The position numbers were made by a program, and so were the translations under genes. Below, piece after piece: positions 766 through 18,850 of a stretch of DNA of 64,000 nucleotides. The stretch's first letter is position 1; every line of letters begins with the position of its first letter. Below the pieces are notes generated by a model. That model was not told the origin of the DNA. It ran no database searches and saw nothing but the letters and a program-made list of their open reading frames with translations. This DNA comes from a virus, in IMG/VR virus record IMGVR_UViG_3300028569_002417, positions 62,001-126,000 of that record, one strand, 5' to 3'.

Positions 766-3639
766 ATGTTGGACTTTAGATCATGGCTTTTATTTACCGA
801 AGCACCATCTGATTACACATGGATTGAAAAAGATCCAGAAGATTACGAAACAGAACTTGCAGCTTATATGCAATCAAAACTTGGTAAATTAGGACAAGGT
901 GAAAGGCCAAGCCCCTACAAAAGAGTTATGGCTGACACCATAAAAGGTGTTATGTCTTCAGGTTCAGGTTCAGCAAAAACTAAAAAGAAGAAAAGAAAAA
1001 AGCCTGAAGGAACACCAGAAGAAAGAGCAGCAGCAAGAGAAATATCAAAAATAAAAAGTAAAGAAATAGCTCGCAATCCTCTTGTGCGATATATTAAAGA
1101 AATTGATGACGTATTCATGACTAAACTTGGACTTTTCAAAATAGAAAATGGCAAGAAAGTATTGGCAGAGAAAAGTCTCGCTGATATGATTATGAAAATT
1201 TGTCGTAAAGCTAAAGCGAATTTATTAAGGCGTGGAAAAGAAGTAGATATAGATGATATTTTTTCTGATACCATTAGCATATTGCACACGGCTCCAAAAG
1301 GAATTCTCAATGATAATAGCACCATCCCCGATAATCAGTTCCTAAAAGTAAAAGCAATGCAAAATTCTGATGGGACTTTGCCAGAAGATAAGTATGAAAA
1401 AGTAATGAGTATGGTTGGTAGCCAAGCAAAAAATTATTCTGGATATGTTGGTTGGGAAATAAGCATGTACGGAACAAGATGGAGAGATAGAAAAAATATA
1501 GAATCGCCAGACGTAATTAAATTCGAGCCAATTGCCACAGATAAAAAAACACAAAGACAAAAAGATATTGAAAGAGATGATCGCTTAGCTCTTAGATCAG
1601 GAATAGTAGGATCTCCAGCCGAGAGAATGTTAAATATTGAAAAAGATTTTCCAGACTTTTCTAAAAAGTTACTTGCCTATTTTAATGGTAAAGATTCAAA
1701 CGAGATGCTTCTTCAAATGGTTCGTAAACTTTTTGATGAAATGAAAAAAGATGCTGGAAACCAAAAGATAGTCAACCAAGATGAATTACAAAAAATTGTT
1801 GACAATGCTGAAATTTTATTCGTTGTCAAAAAAGAAGAAACTGCCGAAAGAGTCAAAGAAATTTCAAGAGTACAGCCAGAAACTTACAAATCTGAACGCC
1901 AAAAAAGATTAACTCGTAACCTTATTGGCACAAGCAGAGAGCCTTATACGAGTGTAAAAATTGGAGGAGAAGAAGAAGACGTATTTGCAGAACCTGATGA
2001 AAAGCTAGAAAAGAATGTTTTAAGTGTTATTGACGATTTAATAAATAATTCAACTGCCGAATTAACCAAGGAAAAGTGGAAAAAAATCAAAAAAGTAGCA
2101 TTTTATGTTCTTGATGCTGACCATAGATGGAACAAAAGTCAAGTTGCTGAGTTTTTAAGAACTAGTCCACCAAATGCCGAAATATATATCAAAGAAATCA
2201 GAAAAATAGCAAAAGAAGTTGCTCTTGATCCTAAAGGTCTTGGACTTAATGAGCCTCAAGAAACTGAAGAAATTATTAAAGGTGGAAAAATTCCACTAAC
2301 TCCTTTCCAAAAATCTCTTGCTGCTGGTAAACCTGATCCAAGTCTTAAAAGATTAGTTAGACACGGTGAAAAAGGTCAAAAACACTATACACTTCCCGGA
2401 GATTTTGCACAAGAAAGAAAAGGAACAACTCCTCAACAAGTGGCAAGGAGAGAAGTAAGTGATCAAGAAAAGAAAATAATGGCAGATGATACTCTTCGTA
2501 AAATAAATAAACTTTACAAACTTGATCAGGAAAGAATAAAAAAAGAACAATTGCCTTTATTCGTTGTTGATCAAAGAGTAAGCAACTATGGTGATGCTTC
2601 AGCAACTACAATTGATCCCGGTGAACAGCATAGATCAAGTGTGGCATCAATAAGATTGTGGAAAGCACAATCTGAATTGTCTTATGCCAAAGCAACACTA
2701 GAATCTTATGAAAATAAACTTAGAGAACTTGAAAAACAAGCTGGAAATTTAGATGTTAAGCTATTGAGTGATTTACGAAATAGCAGAGATGAGATGAAAA
2801 ATCAAGTAGATAAGCTTGAAAAGGAAATAAAAGAACTTAAATCGTTGACAGACAAGGAAGTTTCCGTACTAGGAAACATAAAGCGTTCTGAATTAACAGA
2901 TACAGCAGAAACACCTTTCCTTGTAAAATACGATAATGATCCAGAGGCAAGTCCATATGCTAGCAACAAGGGCATGGCAGGTAAAAAGCCTCTTGGAAGA
3001 TTGAAAGCATTGCGTGATATTTTGAACAAAGCAAATGATCCTCGTTTGGACAGCGAAGAAGTAAAGAAACACTTTAATGCTCCTTTACCTCGTGCTATGC
3101 CCGGAGAAAGGCTTCAAGCTCTTCCAGTTGGTCGTTTTACAAATCAGGGTCGTACCAGCAATGCCTATCTTACTGGCTTAAGACCAAGTCAAATTGGTAT
3201 TGATGCCGAAAAATCCTTTATGAATAAATATGTTACCGGAATGCCGGGAATGCGTCCCGGAAAAAAATATTATCCTCATCCCACAGATGATCCAAAAACA
3301 CGACTTGTTCCAGATCTGGATCATGATGTATTATGGGACACTGATTTCGATGGTTATCCCGAAATTCCCGGCAGCAGGGAATACATGAACTGGCAACAAA
3401 ATAGAAAAAGGCCAGAAGCACCAGAAGCACCAGAAGCACCAGAAGCACCACCAGAAGCACCAGAAGCGCCAGTTGGTGCTAAAAAGCGTGGTCGTCCTAG
3501 ATCAACACCAGAAATAATAGCACCAGTTATAGCACCAACTGGCGCTGCAAAGCGTGGTCGTCCTCGCAAAGTTGAATCAACTGGAAATGGATGGATTTCT
3601 TTGTCTGAGCATATGGCTAGAAGGCGTTTTGCATTCTAG
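766..3639 (+). CDS. Large AT-hook protein with capsid-targeting-like N-terminus
   Basis: This is a 957-residue, highly charged protein. It begins MLDFRSWLLFTEAP, matching the pattern F-x-x-(F/W)...(L/I)-x(1-2)-E that I see in four other proteins here and that resembles the T4 capsid-targeting peptide cleaved by prohead protease gp21. A Lys-rich tract follows at about residues 65-85. Residues ~140-245 and ~430-490 look faintly like sigma-factor region 2 and a helix-turn-helix, but this is weak. A coiled coil spans about 620-710. Near the C-terminus is an EAP repeat followed by two KRGRPR AT-hooks (about residues 906 and 930), a minor-groove DNA-binding motif. The likely role is an internal head protein bound to packaged DNA. 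Upstream are a TAAATAAAACA element and a GGGG ribosome site. Confidence 0.6.
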   Translation: MLDFRSWLLFTEAPSDYTWIEKDPEDYETELAAYMQSKLGKLGQGERPSPYKRVMADTIKGVMSSGSGSAKTKKKKRKKPEGTPEERAAAREISKIKSKEIARNPLVRYIKEIDDVFMTKLGLFKIENGKKVLAEKSLADMIMKICRKAKANLLRRGKEVDIDDIFSDTISILHTAPKGILNDNSTIPDNQFLKVKAMQNSDGTLPEDKYEKVMSMVGSQAKNYSGYVGWEISMYGTRWRDRKNIESPDVIKFEPIATDKKTQRQKDIERDDRLALRSGIVGSPAERMLNIEKDFPDFSKKLLAYFNGKDSNEMLLQMVRKLFDEMKKDAGNQKIVNQDELQKIVDNAEILFVVKKEETAERVKEISRVQPETYKSERQKRLTRNLIGTSREPYTSVKIGGEEEDVFAEPDEKLEKNVLSVIDDLINNSTAELTKEKWKKIKKVAFYVLDADHRWNKSQVAEFLRTSPPNAEIYIKEIRKIAKEVALDPKGLGLNEPQETEEIIKGGKIPLTPFQKSLAAGKPDPSLKRLVRHGEKGQKHYTLPGDFAQERKGTTPQQVARREVSDQEKKIMADDTLRKINKLYKLDQERIKKEQLPLFVVDQRVSNYGDASATTIDPGEQHRSSVASIRLWKAQSELSYAKATLESYENKLRELEKQAGNLDVKLLSDLRNSRDEMKNQVDKLEKEIKELKSLTDKEVSVLGNIKRSELTDTAETPFLVKYDNDPEASPYASNKGMAGKKPLGRLKALRDILNKANDPRLDSEEVKKHFNAPLPRAMPGERLQALPVGRFTNQGRTSNAYLTGLRPSQIGIDAEKSFMNKYVTGMPGMRPGKKYYPHPTDDPKTRLVPDLDHDVLWDTDFDGYPEIPGSREYMNWQQNRKRPEAPEAPEAPEAPPEAPEAPVGAKKRGRPRSTPEIIAPVIAPTGAAKRGRPRKVESTGNGWISLSEHMARRRFAF

Positions 3640-4210: not shown

Positions 4211-4552
4211 ATGAAGTCTTTTTATGAGTTTTATCTTCAGATTCAAAGAGAAGCAGCATTAGCTCCTGCTGCTCCTGCGGCTGGTGCTGCTCCTGCCCCT
4301 GCTGCTGGTGCTGCTCCTGCTGCTGCTGCTGCCCCTGCTGCTGGTGCTGCTCCTGCTGCTCCCGGTGCTGTTGGTACAGCCCCTCCTGCTGCTCCTGTTT
4401 CTAAAGACCCCGCAATTGCCAGTTTAGCAACTGCTATTGCTAAAAACCCAGCGGGATTTAAGGTTTATAAGGATGCATTGGTCAAAGTTACAGATACCAA
4501 ATTGAAGCCAGCAGTAGATTCACTATTAGCTGCTCTCAATATTCCAAAATAA
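4211..4552 (+). CDS. Ala/Pro-rich protein with capsid-targeting-like N-terminus
   Basis: This 113-residue protein starts MKSFYEFYLQIQREAA behind GAGGTGAT. The N-terminus fits the head-targeting pattern F-x-x-F with a possible cleavage site I-Q-R-E before Ala. A low-complexity Ala/Pro/Gly tract (residues ~15-60) follows, then a compact helical C-terminal region of about 50 residues. It sits 11 bases after the gp14-like gene and is followed by a terminator. T4 internal proteins and scaffold fragments have similarly short, biased sequences. Packaging in the head is inference; the family is not recognised. Confidence 0.55.
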   Translation: MKSFYEFYLQIQREAALAPAAPAAGAAPAPAAGAAPAAAAAPAAGAAPAAPGAVGTAPPAAPVSKDPAIASLATAIAKNPAGFKVYKDALVKVTDTKLKPAVDSLLAALNIPK

Positions 4553-6756: not shown

Positions 6757-9120
6757 ATGGCGATTCTTAAAGGTTTTCCACCATCTAATACAATCAGCCC
6801 AAGTGTTAGAATTGCTGAAAAAGACTTGAGCTTCATCGCACCTGAACAGTCAACGCATACGGCAGGATTGGTTGGATTTGCCTCTAAAGGCCCAGTCAAT
6901 CTTCCTATTGCGATTGCTACTTCACGTCAGTTGCATACAACTTTTGGCAATCCTCATCCTGATATGGGTGATCCATTCTTGATTTATGCAGCAGATCAAT
7001 ATCTCCTCGTCGCAAATACACTTTATGTAGTGCGTGTTGCAGATACCGATCCTGTTTCTGATGAGCAGGCTACAACCGCTTCAGTAGATGTTCTGGCAGC
7101 TGGATCAATTATTGAAATTGAAGCTAACGGCGAAGCCGGTCCTTACACTTTTGACGAAGATTCATTCTTCCGTTGGAAACTTAATGGTCAGCTTTCAACA
7201 AAAACACTAGTTGTTCTTGCAGATACATATACAACTGATGAACTTGTCATAGCTTTGAATGATCAGCTTGATACTATTCTTGACGGTATTGAGTTTTACG
7301 CAAATACCTCTGATGAAATTGGTGTAAAAACCGTTTGGGCCTATGGACCTAGCGCCAGCCTTGAACTGGTTTCAATTCAGAATGCAATTTACGGTGGTTC
7401 TGTAAACGATACAGATAACATTCGTGACAACCCAACTGGTTTGGGTACAGGCATGACCCGTGCTTCAGTAACAGGTTCTAATGATCGTTGGCCAATCAAT
7501 GGCTATCAGGTTTCTGGCCATTATGAATTCACAGGTCTTACCGATCAGGTAATTGAGCTTGTGGTCGATGGCACTGATAATATTTTGATTGATCAAGTTG
7601 TTCAGACAATTACAATCGCTGATGGCGCTGCTTACACAAGCATCAACGATGTTATCTCTGATATTAATGATCAGAAGGCTGAAAACGGCGGAACTCTTCC
7701 CGGTGGCTGGACAGCACTAGCCTCTGGAACACAGCTTCGCTTCGTTACTAATCATCATGGCGCTGATGCTCGTCTTCGCATCAAGCCAGCTAGCACTGAA
7801 GTTTTTGGACTTTCAACTCTTACCGTAACTGGTACAAGTCCTGAAGGTACAACTGGCTCAGTCAGCATCGAAACTTTTGGTTTGGTTAACGGTGGTGCAA
7901 ATAGCGGTGGCGATGTTTCCTTTGTTATAAACGCTGATTCACCGGGCATTGATGGTAACGTAACTCAAGTTCTTATCACTAATAGCTCTGTTGATTCAAC
8001 TTTTAACTTGGAAGTTTATGCAAATGGAGTTCAAGTTGAATCTTGGGGCAATCTGACAAAGAATGCAACAAGCCGATTCTATGTTGAAACCTATTTGGCT
8101 CTGGTATCTGATTATGTCAGACCTATAGACAACACCTTAGTTGGCGCTGGTCCTGCTAGTGGCACTTACAATCTTGCAGGCGGCTCTGACGGTATCCCCG
8201 CAGATCCTGACAAGCAAGACGTGCTTCTAATGGGCAGTCCTATTGGCTACACAGGCATTTATACTCTCAGCGAACCTGAGCAAGTAAATATTGACCTGAT
8301 TGCAGTTCCCGGTCACTCAAGCACAGCAGTTGTTCAAGAACTTCTACTGTTCTGTCGTGACTATCGTCAAGATTGTCTTGCAATCATCGACGCTCCTTTC
8401 GGTTTGACTGTTAAGGAAGTTGTTGCTTGGCAGAACGGTGCTCATCCGCTTAACAATACTCGATTTGATAGCGATTTTGGCGCACTTTACTGGCCTTGGG
8501 TTAAAATCTATGATCCATACAACAAAGTTGATGTATGGTGTCCTCCAAGCGGTTCAATCATGGCAGTTATCGCTCGTAGCGATTTTCTGGGAGCTCCTTG
8601 GTTTGCTCCAGCTGGACTTACTCGTGGTGTTGTTCCTAACATTACAGATGTCTATAGTCGTCCTACTTTGGAAGAACGTGATACGATGTACGGCAATCGC
8701 AACTGCGTAAATCCAATCATACAGTTCGCTGATGTTCAAGGTTTCGTGGTATTCGGCCAGAAAACCTTGCAGCGCACTCCTACTGCTCTTGACCGTGTTA
8801 ATGTTCGCCGTCTGATGTTTTATATCGAGAAGGCTATTCGCACCGCAAGTCGCACCTTGTTGTTCGATCCAAATGATGGAATTTTCCAGCAGAAGTTTAT
8901 AACTATCGCAGAAAATATTCTTAGTCAGGTTCAAGTTGGTCGTGGGTTGACTGCTTATATTATCAAAGCCGATGCCGAACTCAATACTGTTGATGTTATC
9001 GACCGTAATGAATTCCGTGCAAGAATTGGTGTGCAACCAACCCGTGCTGCTGAATTTATGTTCATCGAATTCTCGATTCACAGAACTGGCAGCTTTGTAG
9101 TAGGCGCTGAAACATTCTAA
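6757..9120 (+). CDS. Contractile tail sheath protein, T4 gp18-like
   Basis: This 787-residue protein is preceded by AAAGGGAG. The N-terminus has the sheath hallmark of a short lead followed by SPSVRIAEKDLSF and GLVGFASKGPVN (~15-45). The C-terminal third carries the conserved sheath core: VNIDLIAVPGHSSTAVVQEL (~510-529), CLAIIDAPFG (~545), a PSGSIMAVIAR segment (~595) and VNVRRLMFYIEKAIRTASR (~685-703) with the final beta strands. The middle (~100-480) is an insertion of Ig-like or protruding domains, longer than in T4 gp18 (659 residues). The sheath polymerises around the tube and contracts at infection. It is followed by the tube gene after 31 bases. Confidence 0.92.
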   Translation: MAILKGFPPSNTISPSVRIAEKDLSFIAPEQSTHTAGLVGFASKGPVNLPIAIATSRQLHTTFGNPHPDMGDPFLIYAADQYLLVANTLYVVRVADTDPVSDEQATTASVDVLAAGSIIEIEANGEAGPYTFDEDSFFRWKLNGQLSTKTLVVLADTYTTDELVIALNDQLDTILDGIEFYANTSDEIGVKTVWAYGPSASLELVSIQNAIYGGSVNDTDNIRDNPTGLGTGMTRASVTGSNDRWPINGYQVSGHYEFTGLTDQVIELVVDGTDNILIDQVVQTITIADGAAYTSINDVISDINDQKAENGGTLPGGWTALASGTQLRFVTNHHGADARLRIKPASTEVFGLSTLTVTGTSPEGTTGSVSIETFGLVNGGANSGGDVSFVINADSPGIDGNVTQVLITNSSVDSTFNLEVYANGVQVESWGNLTKNATSRFYVETYLALVSDYVRPIDNTLVGAGPASGTYNLAGGSDGIPADPDKQDVLLMGSPIGYTGIYTLSEPEQVNIDLIAVPGHSSTAVVQELLLFCRDYRQDCLAIIDAPFGLTVKEVVAWQNGAHPLNNTRFDSDFGALYWPWVKIYDPYNKVDVWCPPSGSIMAVIARSDFLGAPWFAPAGLTRGVVPNITDVYSRPTLEERDTMYGNRNCVNPIIQFADVQGFVVFGQKTLQRTPTALDRVNVRRLMFYIEKAIRTASRTLLFDPNDGIFQQKFITIAENILSQVQVGRGLTAYIIKADAELNTVDVIDRNEFRARIGVQPTRAAEFMFIEFSIHRTGSFVVGAETF

Positions 9121-9151: not shown

Positions 9152-9742
9152 ATGGCAGACATAACAAACATGGGATTAGGATCAATTGGCGGGAACAGTA
9201 TTGTTTTCAAAAGAAAGTACCGATGGACTTTCGCTGTGCGCTGGAATGGAGGAGACATTCCTACCGCATTCGTAAAAGTTGCAAACCGTCCCAATCTTAC
9301 AATTGAACAGACTGAAATTAACTATCTGCATGGTAAGATGTGGATTCCCGGTAAAGGTACTTGGGAAACACTAACTGTAAGCTACTACGATATTGGCGGT
9401 GATGATGCCAAAGGTATGAAAACCTTATGGGATTGGCTTGTTACAGTTTATAACTTCACCGATCCAGATACTCTGAAGCAGACATCAAAAAGAGGAGCTG
9501 ACGGCAACAGCACAGGTTGGGCCGCAGTTGGCAATCTTACCATGTATGATGGTACTGGTGCAGAAATGGAAAACTGGAGACTTAAGAATCTTTGGCCAGC
9601 TGCCATTAACTTCGGCGACCTTGATTACGGTTCTTCAGAAGTAGCGACACTAGATCTTACAATGAGATTTAGTGAGGCCAAATGGACTCCAAGTTGCGGT
9701 GTTCTACCACCTACTGCGACTCCAATCGGTTGCAACGGCTAA
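9152..9742 (+). CDS. Tail tube protein, T4 gp19-like
   Basis: This 196-residue protein is preceded by AAAAAGGAGAATAAG. It shows the gp19 pattern: FKRKYRWTFAVRW (~20-32), RPNLTIEQTEINYLHGKMWI (~48-67), WETLTVSYYDIGG (~72-84), then NLTMYDGTGAEMENWRLKNL (~128-147) and FGDLDYGSSEVATLDLTMRF (~154-173). Stacked hexamers of this protein form the inner tail tube. It follows the sheath, as in T4, and is closed by a strong terminator. A divergent second copy lies just downstream. Confidence 0.9.
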   Translation: MADITNMGLGSIGGNSIVFKRKYRWTFAVRWNGGDIPTAFVKVANRPNLTIEQTEINYLHGKMWIPGKGTWETLTVSYYDIGGDDAKGMKTLWDWLVTVYNFTDPDTLKQTSKRGADGNSTGWAAVGNLTMYDGTGAEMENWRLKNLWPAAINFGDLDYGSSEVATLDLTMRFSEAKWTPSCGVLPPTATPIGCNG

Positions 9743-9811: not shown

Positions 9812-10321
9812 ATGGGTCAGCAAATGGGATGGGGTGATAGTTTTGGTTTAGCAGATTCTAATGCTTGCTTCAAAAGAAAAAATCGTTGGCTTTTTATGAT
9901 TCCAGACATAAGTGCAGAAGGAATCAATGCCTTACCTCCATCGAAAGCATCTAGACCTTCTCTTTCATTCAAAGAACTAAGCGTGGAACATTTGAATGAA
10001 ACAATTTATTATCCGGGAAAACCAGAATGGAAATCAATTACATTAACTCTATATGACATTTATAAGCCTCAAAACAAAATTTGGGAATGGATCAATTCAT
10101 ATTATGATGTAGAAAACGATAAATTCAAATTTGCTGTTGGATTTAAGCAACCAAGAGCGCAACTAACTTTATATGATGGAACAGGCGAAGAGATTGAAAC
10201 TTGGTTCCTTGAGTCTGTTTGGTGCCAAGACATTTCATTTGGAGACTTGGACATGGGAAGCAGTGAAGTTGTAACTGTTGATCTTATTTTAAGATATGAC
10301 AGAGCCACCTATCTATCTTAA
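9812..10321 (+). CDS. Second tail tube-like protein
   Basis: This 169-residue paralogue of the preceding tube protein starts after AGAGGTGTAA. The shared blocks in the same order are FKRKNRWLFMIP (~21-32), RPSLSFKELSVEHLNETIYY (~50-69), PGKPEWKSITLTLYDIY (~70-86), QLTLYDGTGEEIETWFLESV (~114-133) and FGDLDMGSSEVVTVDLILRY (~140-159). It is shorter at the C-terminus. The terminator between the copies means it is transcribed separately. It may be a minor tube, tube-initiator or tail-terminator protein, or a tube variant. It converges on the next reverse gene with a 4-base overlap. Confidence 0.82.
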   Translation: MGQQMGWGDSFGLADSNACFKRKNRWLFMIPDISAEGINALPPSKASRPSLSFKELSVEHLNETIYYPGKPEWKSITLTLYDIYKPQNKIWEWINSYYDVENDKFKFAVGFKQPRAQLTLYDGTGEEIETWFLESVWCQDISFGDLDMGSSEVVTVDLILRYDRATYLS

Positions 10322-13790: not shown

Positions 13791-14906
13791 ATGACAGACG
13801 AAAATTTTCGTATGAGAAGGCCGAGTACCAATGAAGCACCAGCATCAAATCAGGAGAGTAACGTGAGTAATCCACTTGATTCAGTCAATCAATTTCGTCA
13901 GCAGGCGAGCAATGAATCTTCAGGTCGTCCTAATGACATGCCAAGCGGCTTAGATATTCAAGGCAATGTTCCTCCTGCTTTTGCAGCGGCACTTGCTTCT
14001 GCAAAAGGTGGCCAGCCACAACAATCCAAGCGTGGATTTGGCACCATGAGTGCAGGAGGAGAAGCGCCTGCATATTCTCCTCCTCCTAAAAATCTTGCTT
14101 CTTCTTCTGGTCACCTGAAGGAACTTCTTGAAGGTCTTCGTGGATCGACAACGATTTACGAAGAAATTGAACTTCCATCTAAGGGCAAGTTCTACAATGG
14201 TGAAGATGGGCCAGTAAATGGCGTTGTTTCAATTCGACCAATGACCGGAGAAGAAGAACAAATTCTTGCCACTCCAAGATTTGTTAAGAAGGGTCAAGCG
14301 ATCAACATGATTTTCCAAAAGTGCCTTAAGGAAGGCATTCGACCAGAAAATCTTCTTACAATTGACCGCACTTATCTTCTCATTTATCTTCGTGGTATTT
14401 CCTATGGACCAAGCTATGATGTTGAAATCAAGTGTCCAGAGTGTGAAACAAAGTTCAGCACTAGCATTGACTTGAACAGTCTTTTTGTTGAATACACTCC
14501 AGCTGATTATGGCCCTGAACTGCGTGATGTTCTTCCAACATCCAAGCTTCCTTTCAGTTATCGACTTTCAACAGGTCGTGACGAACAGGAAATTCAGGAC
14601 CATCGTGATCGACGAATCAAGGCTTTTGGAGACACTGGTGCAGATGACACTCTTACCTATCGCACTGCTCAACTTCTAAACGATATTGATGGAATAACTG
14701 ATAAGTCAGAACTTCAAATATTGATTAAGAATCTTCCAATCAATGATGTTTCTCACATTCGCAACCTTCTCAACGAGCCACCATTCGGCGTGGATACAAA
14801 TGTAGAGATTGTTTGCCCAAGTTGCTTAGCAGATTTCAGCCTCGATCTGCCATTGGAGGCAAATTTTTTCTTCCCTCGACGCAAGAGGGCCAAGACCCAA
14901 GCATAA
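13791..14906 (+). CDS. Baseplate hub subunit / tail assembly protein, T4 gp26-like
   Basis: This 371-residue protein is preceded by GCGGAG. The first ~110 residues are disordered (Asn, Ser, Pro, Gly). The folded part has ELPSKGKFYNGEDGPVNG (~126-143), VSIRPMTGEEEQILATPRFV (~145-164), a Cys-rich knuckle IKCPECETKF (~213-222) and a second knuckle IVCPSCLADF (~341-350). This fits the T4 gp26 family of baseplate hub proteins with a zinc site. Near its 3-prime end the frame meets the slippery run A-AAT-TTT with a hairpin, and an overlapping -1 frame continues to 15094. Gene 51 follows gene 26 in T4, so an extension or gp51-like product is expected here. Confidence 0.78.
   Translation: MTDENFRMRRPSTNEAPASNQESNVSNPLDSVNQFRQQASNESSGRPNDMPSGLDIQGNVPPAFAAALASAKGGQPQQSKRGFGTMSAGGEAPAYSPPPKNLASSSGHLKELLEGLRGSTTIYEEIELPSKGKFYNGEDGPVNGVVSIRPMTGEEEQILATPRFVKKGQAINMIFQKCLKEGIRPENLLTIDRTYLLIYLRGISYGPSYDVEIKCPECETKFSTSIDLNSLFVEYTPADYGPELRDVLPTSKLPFSYRLSTGRDEQEIQDHRDRRIKAFGDTGADDTLTYRTAQLLNDIDGITDKSELQILIKNLPINDVSHIRNLLNEPPFGVDTNVEIVCPSCLADFSLDLPLEANFFFPRRKRAKTQA
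14861..14889 (+). promoter_or_regulatory. Probable programmed -1 frameshift signal
   Basis: In the gp26-like frame the bases read GCA-AAT-TTT, giving the slippery heptamer A-AAT-TTT at 14861-14867 (X-XXY-YYZ form). After a 5-base spacer comes CCCTC (14873-14877), a 7-base loop and GAGGG (14885-14889), a perfect 5-pair stem at the usual distance. The -1 frame is open from here to 15094. Confidence 0.65.
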
Positions 14907-15094
14907 CAATTTGGGAGCAATTGGCGGAAGAAATATTTTTCTTCCAATATCATATGCACTTGGATATGTCAGGTTCCATGAGCCTTCCAATCAATCTCAG
15001 AAAATGGATGATCGAAAGATTTATTCAGCAAAAAGAGAATGAAAATAAGTCCATGGAAGCACAGCAGAAGAAGGCTAGTCAAAGATCGAGGTAA
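14867..15094 (+). CDS. Frameshift extension or gp51-like small protein
   Basis: This frame overlaps the end of the gp26-like gene and codes ITIWEQLAEEIFFFQYHMHL followed by MSLPINLRKWMIERFIQQKE. The helical, Trp-rich block looks like a real domain, and the pattern LP...RKW...R is typical of C-terminal parts of tail-assembly chaperones. It lacks a good start: the first in-frame options after the gp26 stop are TTG at 14921 (GGGAG only 3 bases away) and ATG at 14954 (no ribosome site), and both would cut the domain. A -1 shift at 14867 gives a fusion of about 434 residues. Alternatively it is a free gp51-like protein. The tail is Lys/Gln/Ser-rich. Confidence 0.6.
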   Translation, partial: FLPSTQEGQDPSITIWEQLAEEIFFFQYHMHLDMSGSMSLPINLRKWMIERFIQQKENENKSMEAQQKKASQRSR

Positions 15095-15097
15095 AGA

Positions 15098-15838
15098 ATG
15101 GTAAAAGAACGCTACCAGAAGCCTGTTTGTGGAGACACAGTCAATCTGCGTCTTTTCACATACAACGCTAATAGTTTGACAAATGTTGGAACAATAAATG
15201 AAGTTAAAATTTATGTCATCGATGATGCTCTTAAAGACGCATCAAATCCTGAAGGATTACGTTTAGTTCAAACAGTTTCTGGTTCTTCTGTTGAATTGGC
15301 TAAAACAGGAGAATATATTTTATCTATTTACCTTGATCCAGAAATTTATGGAATTGGTACATATTATGACTTTTGGAACGTCACATTTGAATCAGGAGAA
15401 TGTCCCAACACGGAAGTAAGAAATACATTTCAAATTGCTTCAGATCTTTGGTTTACAAGTTCCAGTCCAATAATATATGACTTTAACTTTCAATTCAGGC
15501 CAAATCGAATTAGAAAGGGATCTAAGCGTTATGTTCTTATTAAAGTGACTCCTAATGTTCCTCAAGGTGCTGATCTTGTATCTTATTATGATAATCTTGC
15601 CATAGTCTCCGACATAAGAGTATCTATGGAGATATCCTGCGGTGAATGTGTACCCGCAGAGACTGATCTCCGACTCGTCGTTGATCGGCACCTTGTGGAA
15701 TATAGGCAAGATAGCTACGCTTATTGGTTTTTAGACACAACTCAATTGGATGAAGGAATTTACAACATCTGGTTTGAAACAGTTGCTGGCGAAAACACCT
15801 ATATTTCTGAAAAATACGCTCTTCAGATTTACTCCTAA
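15098..15838 (+). CDS. Beta-rich virion-like protein
   Basis: This 246-residue protein starts MVKERYQKPVCGDTVNLRLF, 3 bases after the frameshift frame ends. It is nearly all predicted beta, with features of two Ig-like domains: residues ~1-115 (TGEYILSIYLDPEIYG, YYDFWNVTFESGE) and ~120-246 (KRYVLIKVTPNVPQG, ISCGECVPAETDLRLVVD, WFETVAGENTYISEKYALQI). It has no export signal. The position behind the hub gene suggests a baseplate or tail component. Family not recognised. Confidence 0.55.
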   Translation: MVKERYQKPVCGDTVNLRLFTYNANSLTNVGTINEVKIYVIDDALKDASNPEGLRLVQTVSGSSVELAKTGEYILSIYLDPEIYGIGTYYDFWNVTFESGECPNTEVRNTFQIASDLWFTSSSPIIYDFNFQFRPNRIRKGSKRYVLIKVTPNVPQGADLVSYYDNLAIVSDIRVSMEISCGECVPAETDLRLVVDRHLVEYRQDSYAYWFLDTTQLDEGIYNIWFETVAGENTYISEKYALQIYS

Positions 15839-15890: not shown

Positions 15891-17531
15891 ATGAGCGTTT
15901 CATCAGCCAAGATTGATTTTTGGATCAACAACAACTACAACATCATGTTTGTTGGTCGTCACGGTGTTGGCAAAACAGCAATTATCAAAGAAGCATTTGA
16001 TCGACACCAACTTAAATGGCGTTATTTCTCTGCATCAACTATGGACCCATGGGTCGATTTCATTGGTGTTCCCCGTGAAAAGACAGAAGATGTCATGCCA
16101 GAGAGCTTCTTGACCATCCGTGAATTAGCCAAAATTAATCAGCAAATTGCAATTTCTTATGTGATGCAAAACTGGAAACTTGACGCTGATTCAGCAAATG
16201 AAGTTGTTCAACACGCATCTAAACCTGCTAGCACAACATATCTTGAATTGATTAGACCATTCAGCTTTGCCACAGGAGAAGTGGAAGCTTTATTTTTCGA
16301 TGAGTTCAACAGAAGCCCCAAAAAGATTAGAAACGCTGTAATGGAATTGATTCAATTCGGCAGCGTAAATGGTCACAAGTTTCCCAACCTTCGTTTCGTT
16401 TGGTGTGCAATTAATCCAGATGACGACGAACTACTGAAATATGATGTAGAAGTTTGTGATCCTGCACACCTTGATCGCTTTCATTGCTCCATTCCTATCC
16501 CCTATAAACCCAACGCAGAGTGGTTCCGTGAGAAATATGGTCAGAGATTTGCTGACTCAGCAATTCAGTGGTGGGATGATCTTAACGAAGAAGTGAAAAA
16601 CACTGTAAGTCCCAGAAGGCTTCAATACGCACTTGATATGTTTTCCAAAAAAGGTGACATTCGTGATGTATTGCCCACTGCCAGTAATGTAGGCAAGCTT
16701 ATTACATCTCTTAAAAACGGACCAATCACCGAACAAATTGAAGAACTAGTCAAAAACAAAGATCAAAGTGCTGCCTCTAAGTTTCTTGAAAATGAAAATA
16801 ATTTTTCAGCATCAATTAAGTTTATTGTGCAATCAGCAACTCTTCTTGAATATTTTGTTCCCTTGATGCCTCAAGAAAAGATTGCAAGTCTCATGGCAAC
16901 AGACGATAAAATATGCAATCATATTATCAAAAATATTGATAAAATTCCATCTTTTCATAAGATAAGCAAGCAAGTTATGAATGCCAATTTTGATGCTAGC
17001 TTAGTGAAAAAGATTCGTAGAGCTTTGACTGAAGATGAGAACTTAGCCAAAGCTTTTGCACAAGACGTTCTTGTAGTTCCAAAAAAATCTATCGCTCCTC
17101 ATTTCAACAAGCGTAAGATTAATTGGGACGCAGAGCTAATTCAATTGAATTCTATGGCTATCGATAGCGGCCCTCAAAGAATTGCCATTTACGAAAAAAT
17201 TGTAAAATCTATTCCAGAAAAAATAACAGCAGAAGAATCTTTGGCTACACTAAAACTTCTGAACGAAATATTTGGCAATACAGATAATGCTTCTGCAAAC
17301 AATCAAAAAGATAAATGGCTTTTTACATCAATCATGCTTGACCCAAGCTTTGATAAGCTTTTTGGAATCATTAATCATTGTCTCATTCAAATTCACAAAG
17401 AGAAGAATCTGACACTTACTGAAATTATGAATAATTACGATATGAAATCTTATGAAATTTTCAAAAAAATTGTTCAAACTGACATGAATTGGAAGATTCC
17501 TTCTGATGACTTTTCAGGAATTGCCAAATGA
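15891..17531 (+). CDS. MoxR-type AAA+ ATPase
   Basis: This 546-residue protein is preceded by AAGGATTAG. Walker A is GRHGVGKT (residues 22-29) and Walker B is ALFFDEFNRS (133-142). Sensor 1 is the Asn in WCAINPDDDE (171-180), and LDRFH further on carries an arginine typical of this group. This is the MoxR/RavA-like subgroup, chaperone ATPases that work with VWA-domain partners. The last ~250 residues are helical and unassigned. It overlaps the next gene at ATGA, and that gene encodes a VWA protein, so the pair is a functional unit. The phage role is unknown: remodelling of a host or virion complex is an inference. Confidence 0.85.
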   Translation: MSVSSAKIDFWINNNYNIMFVGRHGVGKTAIIKEAFDRHQLKWRYFSASTMDPWVDFIGVPREKTEDVMPESFLTIRELAKINQQIAISYVMQNWKLDADSANEVVQHASKPASTTYLELIRPFSFATGEVEALFFDEFNRSPKKIRNAVMELIQFGSVNGHKFPNLRFVWCAINPDDDELLKYDVEVCDPAHLDRFHCSIPIPYKPNAEWFREKYGQRFADSAIQWWDDLNEEVKNTVSPRRLQYALDMFSKKGDIRDVLPTASNVGKLITSLKNGPITEQIEELVKNKDQSAASKFLENENNFSASIKFIVQSATLLEYFVPLMPQEKIASLMATDDKICNHIIKNIDKIPSFHKISKQVMNANFDASLVKKIRRALTEDENLAKAFAQDVLVVPKKSIAPHFNKRKINWDAELIQLNSMAIDSGPQRIAIYEKIVKSIPEKITAEESLATLKLLNEIFGNTDNASANNQKDKWLFTSIMLDPSFDKLFGIINHCLIQIHKEKNLTLTEIMNNYDMKSYEIFKKIVQTDMNWKIPSDDFSGIAK

Positions 17532-18850
17532 TTTCCTCGAAATATAAAATTGGAAATGAAGAGTGGCTTGAAATATCAAACTCTCTTGAGCCACACCATG
17601 CCGTCTTTTATAAAGTCTGGCAAATGGGTCGTCCTGTATTTGACGAATCAATTGACACTGCATGTGTTCAATTTGATCAAGAAGGGAAATTTATTCTCTT
17701 TAGGTTTAATCCAAAGTTTTGGAGCAGCCTAGATTTATACAATAAGCTTTTCGTTATATGTCACGAGGCTCTTCATATTGTTTTGAATCATGGCATTAGA
17801 GCAAAGGAAGCAGACTGCAATAGGCAAGCCACCAATGTTGCTATGGACATTGTGGTAAACCATACACTAACGAAAAATTTTGGTTTCTCTCGTGATAAAA
17901 TAACTGGCTCAGAAGATTATTGTTGGGTCGATACTGTTTTCAAAGATCGCAATCCTATGCCATCAAGCAACGAAATGTTTGAATTCTATTATAATCTTTT
18001 TGAAAAAGTCTATGGTCACGGTGGAATGGGAGATGGTGAAGGAGGAGGGCCTCAAACTGTTGATGATCATGAATCACTTGGATCTCAATCCGTTAATTGG
18101 GACAAAGTAATTGACCAGTTAAATGAAGGTCTTTCAGACGAAGAAAAGGAAGGACTTAAATCAACAATTAGCAAGCATTTTCAGAAAAAGAAACCACAAG
18201 ATGGCCAATCTAAAGAATCAGATAAAAATACACCAGCAGGTTCAGGTTCTGGAGGAATTTGGGTTTTTGCCGACTCTAAAAAAGCAAAGAAGCTTAAGAA
18301 ATGGGAAACTATCATTAAGCGTTGGGCCTTAAAGTTCTTCAAAGATGAGAACAAAGAATTTGAACAATGGGCAAGAATAAACAGACGCATGACCATGCTT
18401 CCAAGAAATATGATCATACCATCAGAAATGGAAATAGATGATCGCACTTACGATGAACATAAAATCAATGTTTGGTTCTTTTTAGATACATCAGGATCAT
18501 GCTGGAATCTAAAAGATAGGTTTTTTGCTGCTGCTGAATCTTTACCAGAAACAAGATTCAATGTAAGACTATTTTGCTTTGATACCAATGTGCAAGAAAC
18601 CAACTTAAAAGAAAGAAAGATATATGGAGGTGGAGGCACTTCTTTCAGCATCATTGAACAATATATTCAAAGAACTATGCAAAATGAAGATATTAAATAT
18701 CCTAACTCTGTTTGGATTTTAACAGATGGTTATGGAAATCAAGTGAAACCATTACATCCTGAAAAATGGCATTGGTTTTTAACAGAAGGTGGAGTTAAGA
18801 ATTACATTGATGAAAAATCAAATGTCTTTAGTCTTAAAGATTTTGAATAA
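17528..18850 (+). CDS. VWA protein with metallopeptidase-like N-domain
   Basis: This 440-residue protein is coupled to the MoxR gene by a 4-base overlap. Its N-domain has CHEALHIVLNHG (residues 78-89), a zinc HExxH motif with a following NH, as in the metallopeptidase-like domain often fused to VWA-like domains in MoxR partners. A Gly/Ser-rich linker lies around 165-250. The C-terminal VWA domain has NVWFFLDTSGSC with the MIDAS DxSxS at residues 320-324, GGGGTSFSIIEQ (~358-369) and SVWILTDGYG (~390-399). It probably binds targets through a metal ion while MoxR supplies energy. Whether the HExxH is active cannot be told. Confidence 0.82.
   Translation: MISSKYKIGNEEWLEISNSLEPHHAVFYKVWQMGRPVFDESIDTACVQFDQEGKFILFRFNPKFWSSLDLYNKLFVICHEALHIVLNHGIRAKEADCNRQATNVAMDIVVNHTLTKNFGFSRDKITGSEDYCWVDTVFKDRNPMPSSNEMFEFYYNLFEKVYGHGGMGDGEGGGPQTVDDHESLGSQSVNWDKVIDQLNEGLSDEEKEGLKSTISKHFQKKKPQDGQSKESDKNTPAGSGSGGIWVFADSKKAKKLKKWETIIKRWALKFFKDENKEFEQWARINRRMTMLPRNMIIPSEMEIDDRTYDEHKINVWFFLDTSGSCWNLKDRFFAAAESLPETRFNVRLFCFDTNVQETNLKERKIYGGGGTSFSIIEQYIQRTMQNEDIKYPNSVWILTDGYGNQVKPLHPEKWHWFLTEGGVKNYIDEKSNVFSLKDFE

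Follow-up and report, generated by a model that had tools for sequence, protein, structure and literature searches.

The window analysed here, a 64-kb stretch out of a 225,527-base IMG/VR virus record, carries a gene for a gp26-like protein whose 3' end is overlapped by an open extension in the -1 frame (Table 1). We call the frame-0 product TAC-N, the extension TAC-C and the predicted fusion TAC-NC, after the tail assembly chaperones (TAC) discussed below. The tube genes lie upstream of TAC-N, with a reverse-strand block between the tail-tube ORFs and the gp26-like gene. Directly after TAC-NC comes a gene for a 246-aa protein without family match (15098-15838), and no recognised tape-measure gene adjoins. 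The huge phage LR756511 (locus L001) encodes, in the equivalent place at about position 4305, a protein whose N-terminus is similar (..RYQNPTISDTVRLEFF..), so the 246-aa protein may belong to the tail module. Farther on, an AAA ATPase gene and a VWA/metallopeptidase-like gene form a MoxR-type pair beside the tail genes (15891-18850), and very long Ser/Gly-rich proteins made of repeated SGxIGxxxVxSGxIxSG-like units, probable tail fibres, occupy 38147-60426.

Table 1. Features of the tail gene region in the window (window coordinates).
Feature	Position	Strand	Remark
Sheath-like ORF	6757-9120		Assigned by gene order
Tail-tube-like (gp19) gene	9152-9742		Adjoins a second such gene (9812-10321)
Tail-tube (gp19-like) ORF	9812-10321		PF06841 match
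TAC-N, gp26-like (T4_baseplate, PF12322) putative tail assembly chaperone, 371 aa	13791-14906	+	Domain at residues 125-347
A_AAT_TTT heptamer, overlapping T_TTT_TTC	14861-14867	+	Intact in 34/40 relatives
Proposed site of the -1 frameshift, slippery heptamer T_TTT_TTC	14864-14870	+	In register in 40/40 non-redundant relatives
TAC-C, helical DUF6760/gp51-C-like domain encoded by the -1 extension (74 codons plus stop)	14870-15094	+	
Hairpin CCCTC-GACGCAA-GAGGG	14873-14889	+	Forms in the window and in its closest relatives, L009 and L060
Frame-0 stop codon of TAC-N	14904-14906	+	Direct reading
Predicted TAC-NC fusion, 434 aa	13791-15094	+	360 residues in frame 0 followed by 74 in frame -1; predicted from the slip site

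An earlier note, made from the sequence of the window, had described the frame-0 gene as a gp26-like baseplate hub gene. The first half of that description is well founded, as a family profile search matched TAC-N to PF12322 (T4_baseplate) with E=2.4e-19 and 70.4 bits against a cut-off of 24.5, and to phrog_150 ('baseplate hub') with 7.5e-23; it is the single PF12322 copy in the 225-kb record. The name 'baseplate hub subunit', on the other hand, is better replaced by TAC-N. An AlphaFold model (mean pLDDT 79.7, mostly above 90 over the domain) shows a fold that stops just short of the slip codons, and this model resembles the hub protein of Bacillus phage SP-15 (Foldseek E=1.5e-20, TMt 0.87) as well as other gp26-like proteins. 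When the model was searched against the PDB no solved structure matched significantly; the HK97 chaperone 2ob9 appeared only at E=2.8 (Foldseek), too weak a match to be used as structural support.

A scan of viral contigs gave 59 loci, of which one ends before the site (L038) and another is a distant relative with a different layout (L067). In all 57 complete IMG/VR relatives that remain (50-95% identity) and in LR756511 the -1 extension is open and encodes the same domain, with a conserved core W..LAEEIFFFQYH....PINLRKWMIERFIQQKE. Among 40 non-redundant representatives (<97% identity) the extension contains no stop in 3032 codons, whereas the other two frames contain 114 and 121. Its pN/pS is 0.13 compared with 0.14 for the gp26 domain, and differences fall on codon positions 1, 2 and 3 at rates of 0.32, 0.18 and 0.54. 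The extension thus evolves under purifying selection, and the open frame through 15094 that the earlier note had read as 75 more codons is confirmed as 74 codons and a stop. A chance open frame, or the remnant of a decayed gene, could draw support from the ease with which a slippery heptamer arises in a single sequence (an 18% chance), but the selection and the absence of stops over about 60 loci already refute this reading, and we give it a vanishingly small probability. The 225-kb record holds one copy of TAC-C; a second full-length gp51-like gene in the manner of T4 was not found in this record, which is itself possibly incomplete.

The heptamer first proposed as the slip site, A_AAT_TTT, is present and in register with the gp26-like gene. 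Alignment of the homologues showed that the overlap is conserved, as anticipated, and that the invariant signal is a different one: A_AAT_TTT is kept in only 34 of the 40 representatives and was rejected as the main slip site, while the overlapping canonical X_XXY_YYZ heptamer T_TTT_TTC is found in all 40, with a T-run of exactly six each time. Slippage on either heptamer predicts the identical fusion (..ANFF/LPST.., within ..PLEANFFLPSTQEGQDPSI..), whose computed length of 434 aa agrees with the earlier estimate. Taken by itself, the signal in the window could have arisen by chance: synonymous recoding of the gene places T_TTT_TTC at 14864-14870 in 18% of cases, and a second in-register A_AAT_TTT occurs in the same gene at 13802. 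The case for the slip site consequently rests on conservation. The codons of F359 (TTT) and F360 (TTC) are the same in 40/40 members and show no change on the tree, whereas seven other invariant Phe columns show 7-12 codon changes and the minimum among 42 conserved two-fold columns is four. The constraint on F360 may be partly due to coding in the -1 frame, since its C also opens the Leu codon of the -1 frame; if the shift takes place at T_TTT_TTC, the third base of F359 and the T of codon 358 (AAT/AGT/GGT) would not be explained in this way.

A run of exactly six T in every member might also suit slippage of the RNA polymerase, which would produce a mixture of transcripts and nearly the same protein. 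We regard such transcriptional slippage as extremely unlikely: six T is short for polymerase slippage, the run always stands in the X_XXY_YYZ register, and the homologous +1 sites described below (TTT_TGG, TTT_CGN) look ribosomal. Concerning the RNA downstream of the site, the perfect CCCTC/GAGGG hairpin noticed earlier does exist, at a spacing of 5 nucleotides from A_AAT_TTT and of only 2 from T_TTT_TTC. However, no conserved structure was found in the 45 nucleotides 3' of the site (clade mean z -0.49), so the hairpin is at best accessory; as a conserved stimulator it is unsupported, being confined to the window and its nearest relatives. A stimulatory structure at this place is optional in known frameshifted TACs.

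The other way to express the extension without a frameshift would be to translate TAC-C as a separate protein, either from its own start codon or by re-initiation at the TAC-N stop. The window does have TTG codons in the -1 frame (14813, 14822 and 14921), so the earlier statement that no suitable start codon covers the domain is partly right for the window and strong across the clade. A few relatives carry an ATG or TTG near the TAC-N stop that could permit coupled re-initiation, among them L001 with a TAATG and L022 with an ATG. Phages with the domain on its own ATG, which the earlier note had named as contrary evidence, do exist as two loci of the more distant +1 clade discussed below (L168 and L173). 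Within the window clade, however, 21 of the 40 representatives lack any ATG, GTG or TTG from the upstream -1 stop to the conserved core, and 26 of 40 have a -1 frame that begins no more than three codons ahead of the heptamer. Across the clade as a whole the mechanism thus cannot be separate initiation, although its absence is not proven for every member. Such start codons as exist occupy scattered positions; most are TTG and lack a ribosome site, several lie just before or inside the conserved core, and no consistent candidate was found across the 40 representatives. Nor does separate translation predict the frame-0 invariance of T_TTT_TTC. We consequently judge it very unlikely as an account of TAC-C in this clade.

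The best reading, over about 60 relatives and the wider survey, is the one put forward from the start, a programmed -1 frameshift that joins a gp26-like N-part to a gp51-like C-part in the manner of lambda G/GT. With high confidence, this locus represents the TAC gene of a T4-type huge phage with a contractile tail, in which a -1 slip on T_TTT_TTC would yield TAC-NC. Most ribosomes would stop at 14904 and release TAC-N, and a minority would slip and add the helical TAC-C domain. By analogy with lambda gpG and gpGT, the role of TAC-N would be to coat the tape-measure protein and that of TAC-C to bring in tail-tube subunits; a structural place in the hub is expected for neither. What the sequences show is the coding -1 extension, the invariant slip site, the missing alternative start in half of the relatives and the single copy of each part in the 225-kb record; the slippage, its efficiency and the chaperone role are inferred.

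The relationship of TAC-C to known chaperone domains is seen through other phage groups. Profile-profile comparison (hhalign, pairwise E-values) of the window-clade domain with that of the +1 clade gave E=4e-13 and with that of another group 4e-9; a further comparison between the groups gave 8e-9, so that their TAC-C domains are homologous. Members of the +1 clade match DUF6760 (PF20546) at best with 3.4e-5 and phrog_634 ('baseplate hub assembly catalyst') with 0.0024, while the window clade reaches 0.0094 for DUF6760 at best and the window itself gives a weak match (E=0.12; 12.8 bits, the cut-off being 27). As a difference, annotations typically give DUF6760 a small gene of its own. The C-terminus of T4 gp51 taken alone gave no significant match with the TAC-C profile. 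Pfam matches of TAC-C to Tma16 and DUF525 were taken as compositional or due to chance.

The scheme itself is known. Atkins et al. 2016 (PMC5009743) describe the G-T frameshift as conserved widely among long-tailed phages, with T4 as the exception, and the TAC genes of T4-like phages were identified by Vladimirov, Gautam and Davidson 2022 (Virology 566:9-15); the link of gp26 and gp51 to the chaperones was published there and is not new. T4 gp26 and gp51 show homology in a BLASTP comparison with one another (2e-6), as would fit gp26 being TAC-N and gp51 TAC-NC, since such a pair requires a shared part. Vladimirov and colleagues are said to have found frameshifting conserved in several T4-like groups, T4 reportedly using genes 26 and 51. 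The window resembles this system in its homologous TAC-N (PF12322) and TAC-C and in the poly-T -1 signal seen in T4-like phages; it differs in that a single locus provides both products, whereas in T4 they come from two separate, divergently placed genes. PMC12846349 refers to Vladimirov et al. on the poly-T -1 signals of 'TAC-N genes of T4-like phages' and describes a -1 frameshift at GTTTTT in the TAC genes of Vandenendeviridae and Andersonviridae, myoviruses of another phage group with a poly-T -1 signal likewise placed at the TAC-N 3' end. With the lambda gpG/gpGT and P2/Mu-type chaperones the likeness is one of scheme rather than of demonstrated sequence homology. Judged by its conservation, the window locus is a new, well-supported instance of the frameshifted TAC scheme.

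We also looked at the TAC-N/TAC-C arrangement in more distant phages, through a survey limited by the fragmentary nature of IMG/VR contigs, by uneven sampling and by queries whose choice biases the groups seen. Jumbo phages like Atu_ph07, PA5oct, 121Q and XacN1 encode the domain in the -1 frame behind T_TTT_TTC or T_TTT_TTT, as seen in 51 of their 55 non-redundant loci, and the Atu_ph07, PA5oct and 121Q proteins share 22-24% identity with the window protein. One or other of these heptamers occurs in PA5oct (L072, extension at 3298-3516), 121Q (L073), XacN1 (L074), RAS14 (L076) and Atu_ph07 (L008); in none of them is the -1 TAC-C extension annotated as such, and that of PA5oct has no start codon whatever. 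SP-15, LIS04, GXN1 and their relatives (Thornevirus-type) have the domain in the +1 frame in 13 of 14 non-redundant loci, mostly at TTY_TTT_C(G/A)N and in LIS04 at TTT_TTT_AGT; two cyanophage-like loci reached with the Thornevirus-type query are -1. Phages like Mel-JY01, immuto and LR756508 are likewise +1 in 71 of the 73 non-redundant loci among the matches listed; 67 of the 73 carry the near-invariant site TTT_TGG_CCT, and the +1 scan as a whole returned at least 600 matches, so that the +1 class appears large. The sole exceptions among those 73 are L168 (3707-4040) and L173 (3713-4010), where the stop is followed closely by an ATG-started separate TAC-C gene, so that a two-gene arrangement sits inside a frameshifting +1 clade. 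Since only 25 of the 71 (among the matches listed) lack any start codon, the case for +1 is slightly weaker than that for -1.

The +1 TAC-C domains of SP-15 (L002, 3255-3470), GXN1 (L003, 3213-3494), LIS04 (L005, 3195-3422), Mel-JY01 (L006, 3279-3494) and immuto (L007, 3195-3434) are variously treated in GenBank: truncated in SP-15 (SP15_046, 39 aa) and immuto (gp038, 36 aa), given a TTG start in Mel-JY01, and omitted in GXN1 and LIS04. In favour of the chaperone reading, the TAC-N/TAC-C pair of LIS04 and immuto sits between the tube and tape-measure genes; in SP-15 the pair has the tube gene on one side and, in the tape-measure place on the other, a large putative tail protein. Comparison with bacterial contractile injection systems gave three matches among 295 genomes of one phylum; the plasmid search in the same comparison gave none.

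On the TAC-N tree, where the deep branches are weak, the direction of the shift changes at least once, and three times by parsimony. We lean towards the view that across the gp26/TAC-N superfamily the shift occurs at one homologous Phe-Phe codon pair and that its direction has changed, being -1 at T_TTT_TTC in the window clade and many jumbo phages and +1 at TTT_TGG or TTT_CGN in the Thornevirus-like and Mel-JY01/immuto-like phages, with separate genes in T4 and in L168 and L173. The +1 placement of the domain in the Thornevirus-like and Mel-JY01/immuto-like groups is possibly new; no report of it appeared in the literature searched, a search that did not extend to the full text of Vladimirov et al. 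2022. If the scheme is true, the +1 group would amount to a large class of +1 recoding that has gone undescribed, and the split between -1 and +1 at one homologous site would be a natural experiment on the evolution of recoding direction. The strong comparative evidence for a G-T-type frameshift with an invariant site in huge phages of the T4 superfamily supports gp26 and gp51 as tail assembly chaperones and not hub parts. In many annotated genomes the second half, TAC-C, is cut short or missing, and gp26-like proteins are labelled hub subunits in most of the records examined, so these annotations need changing.
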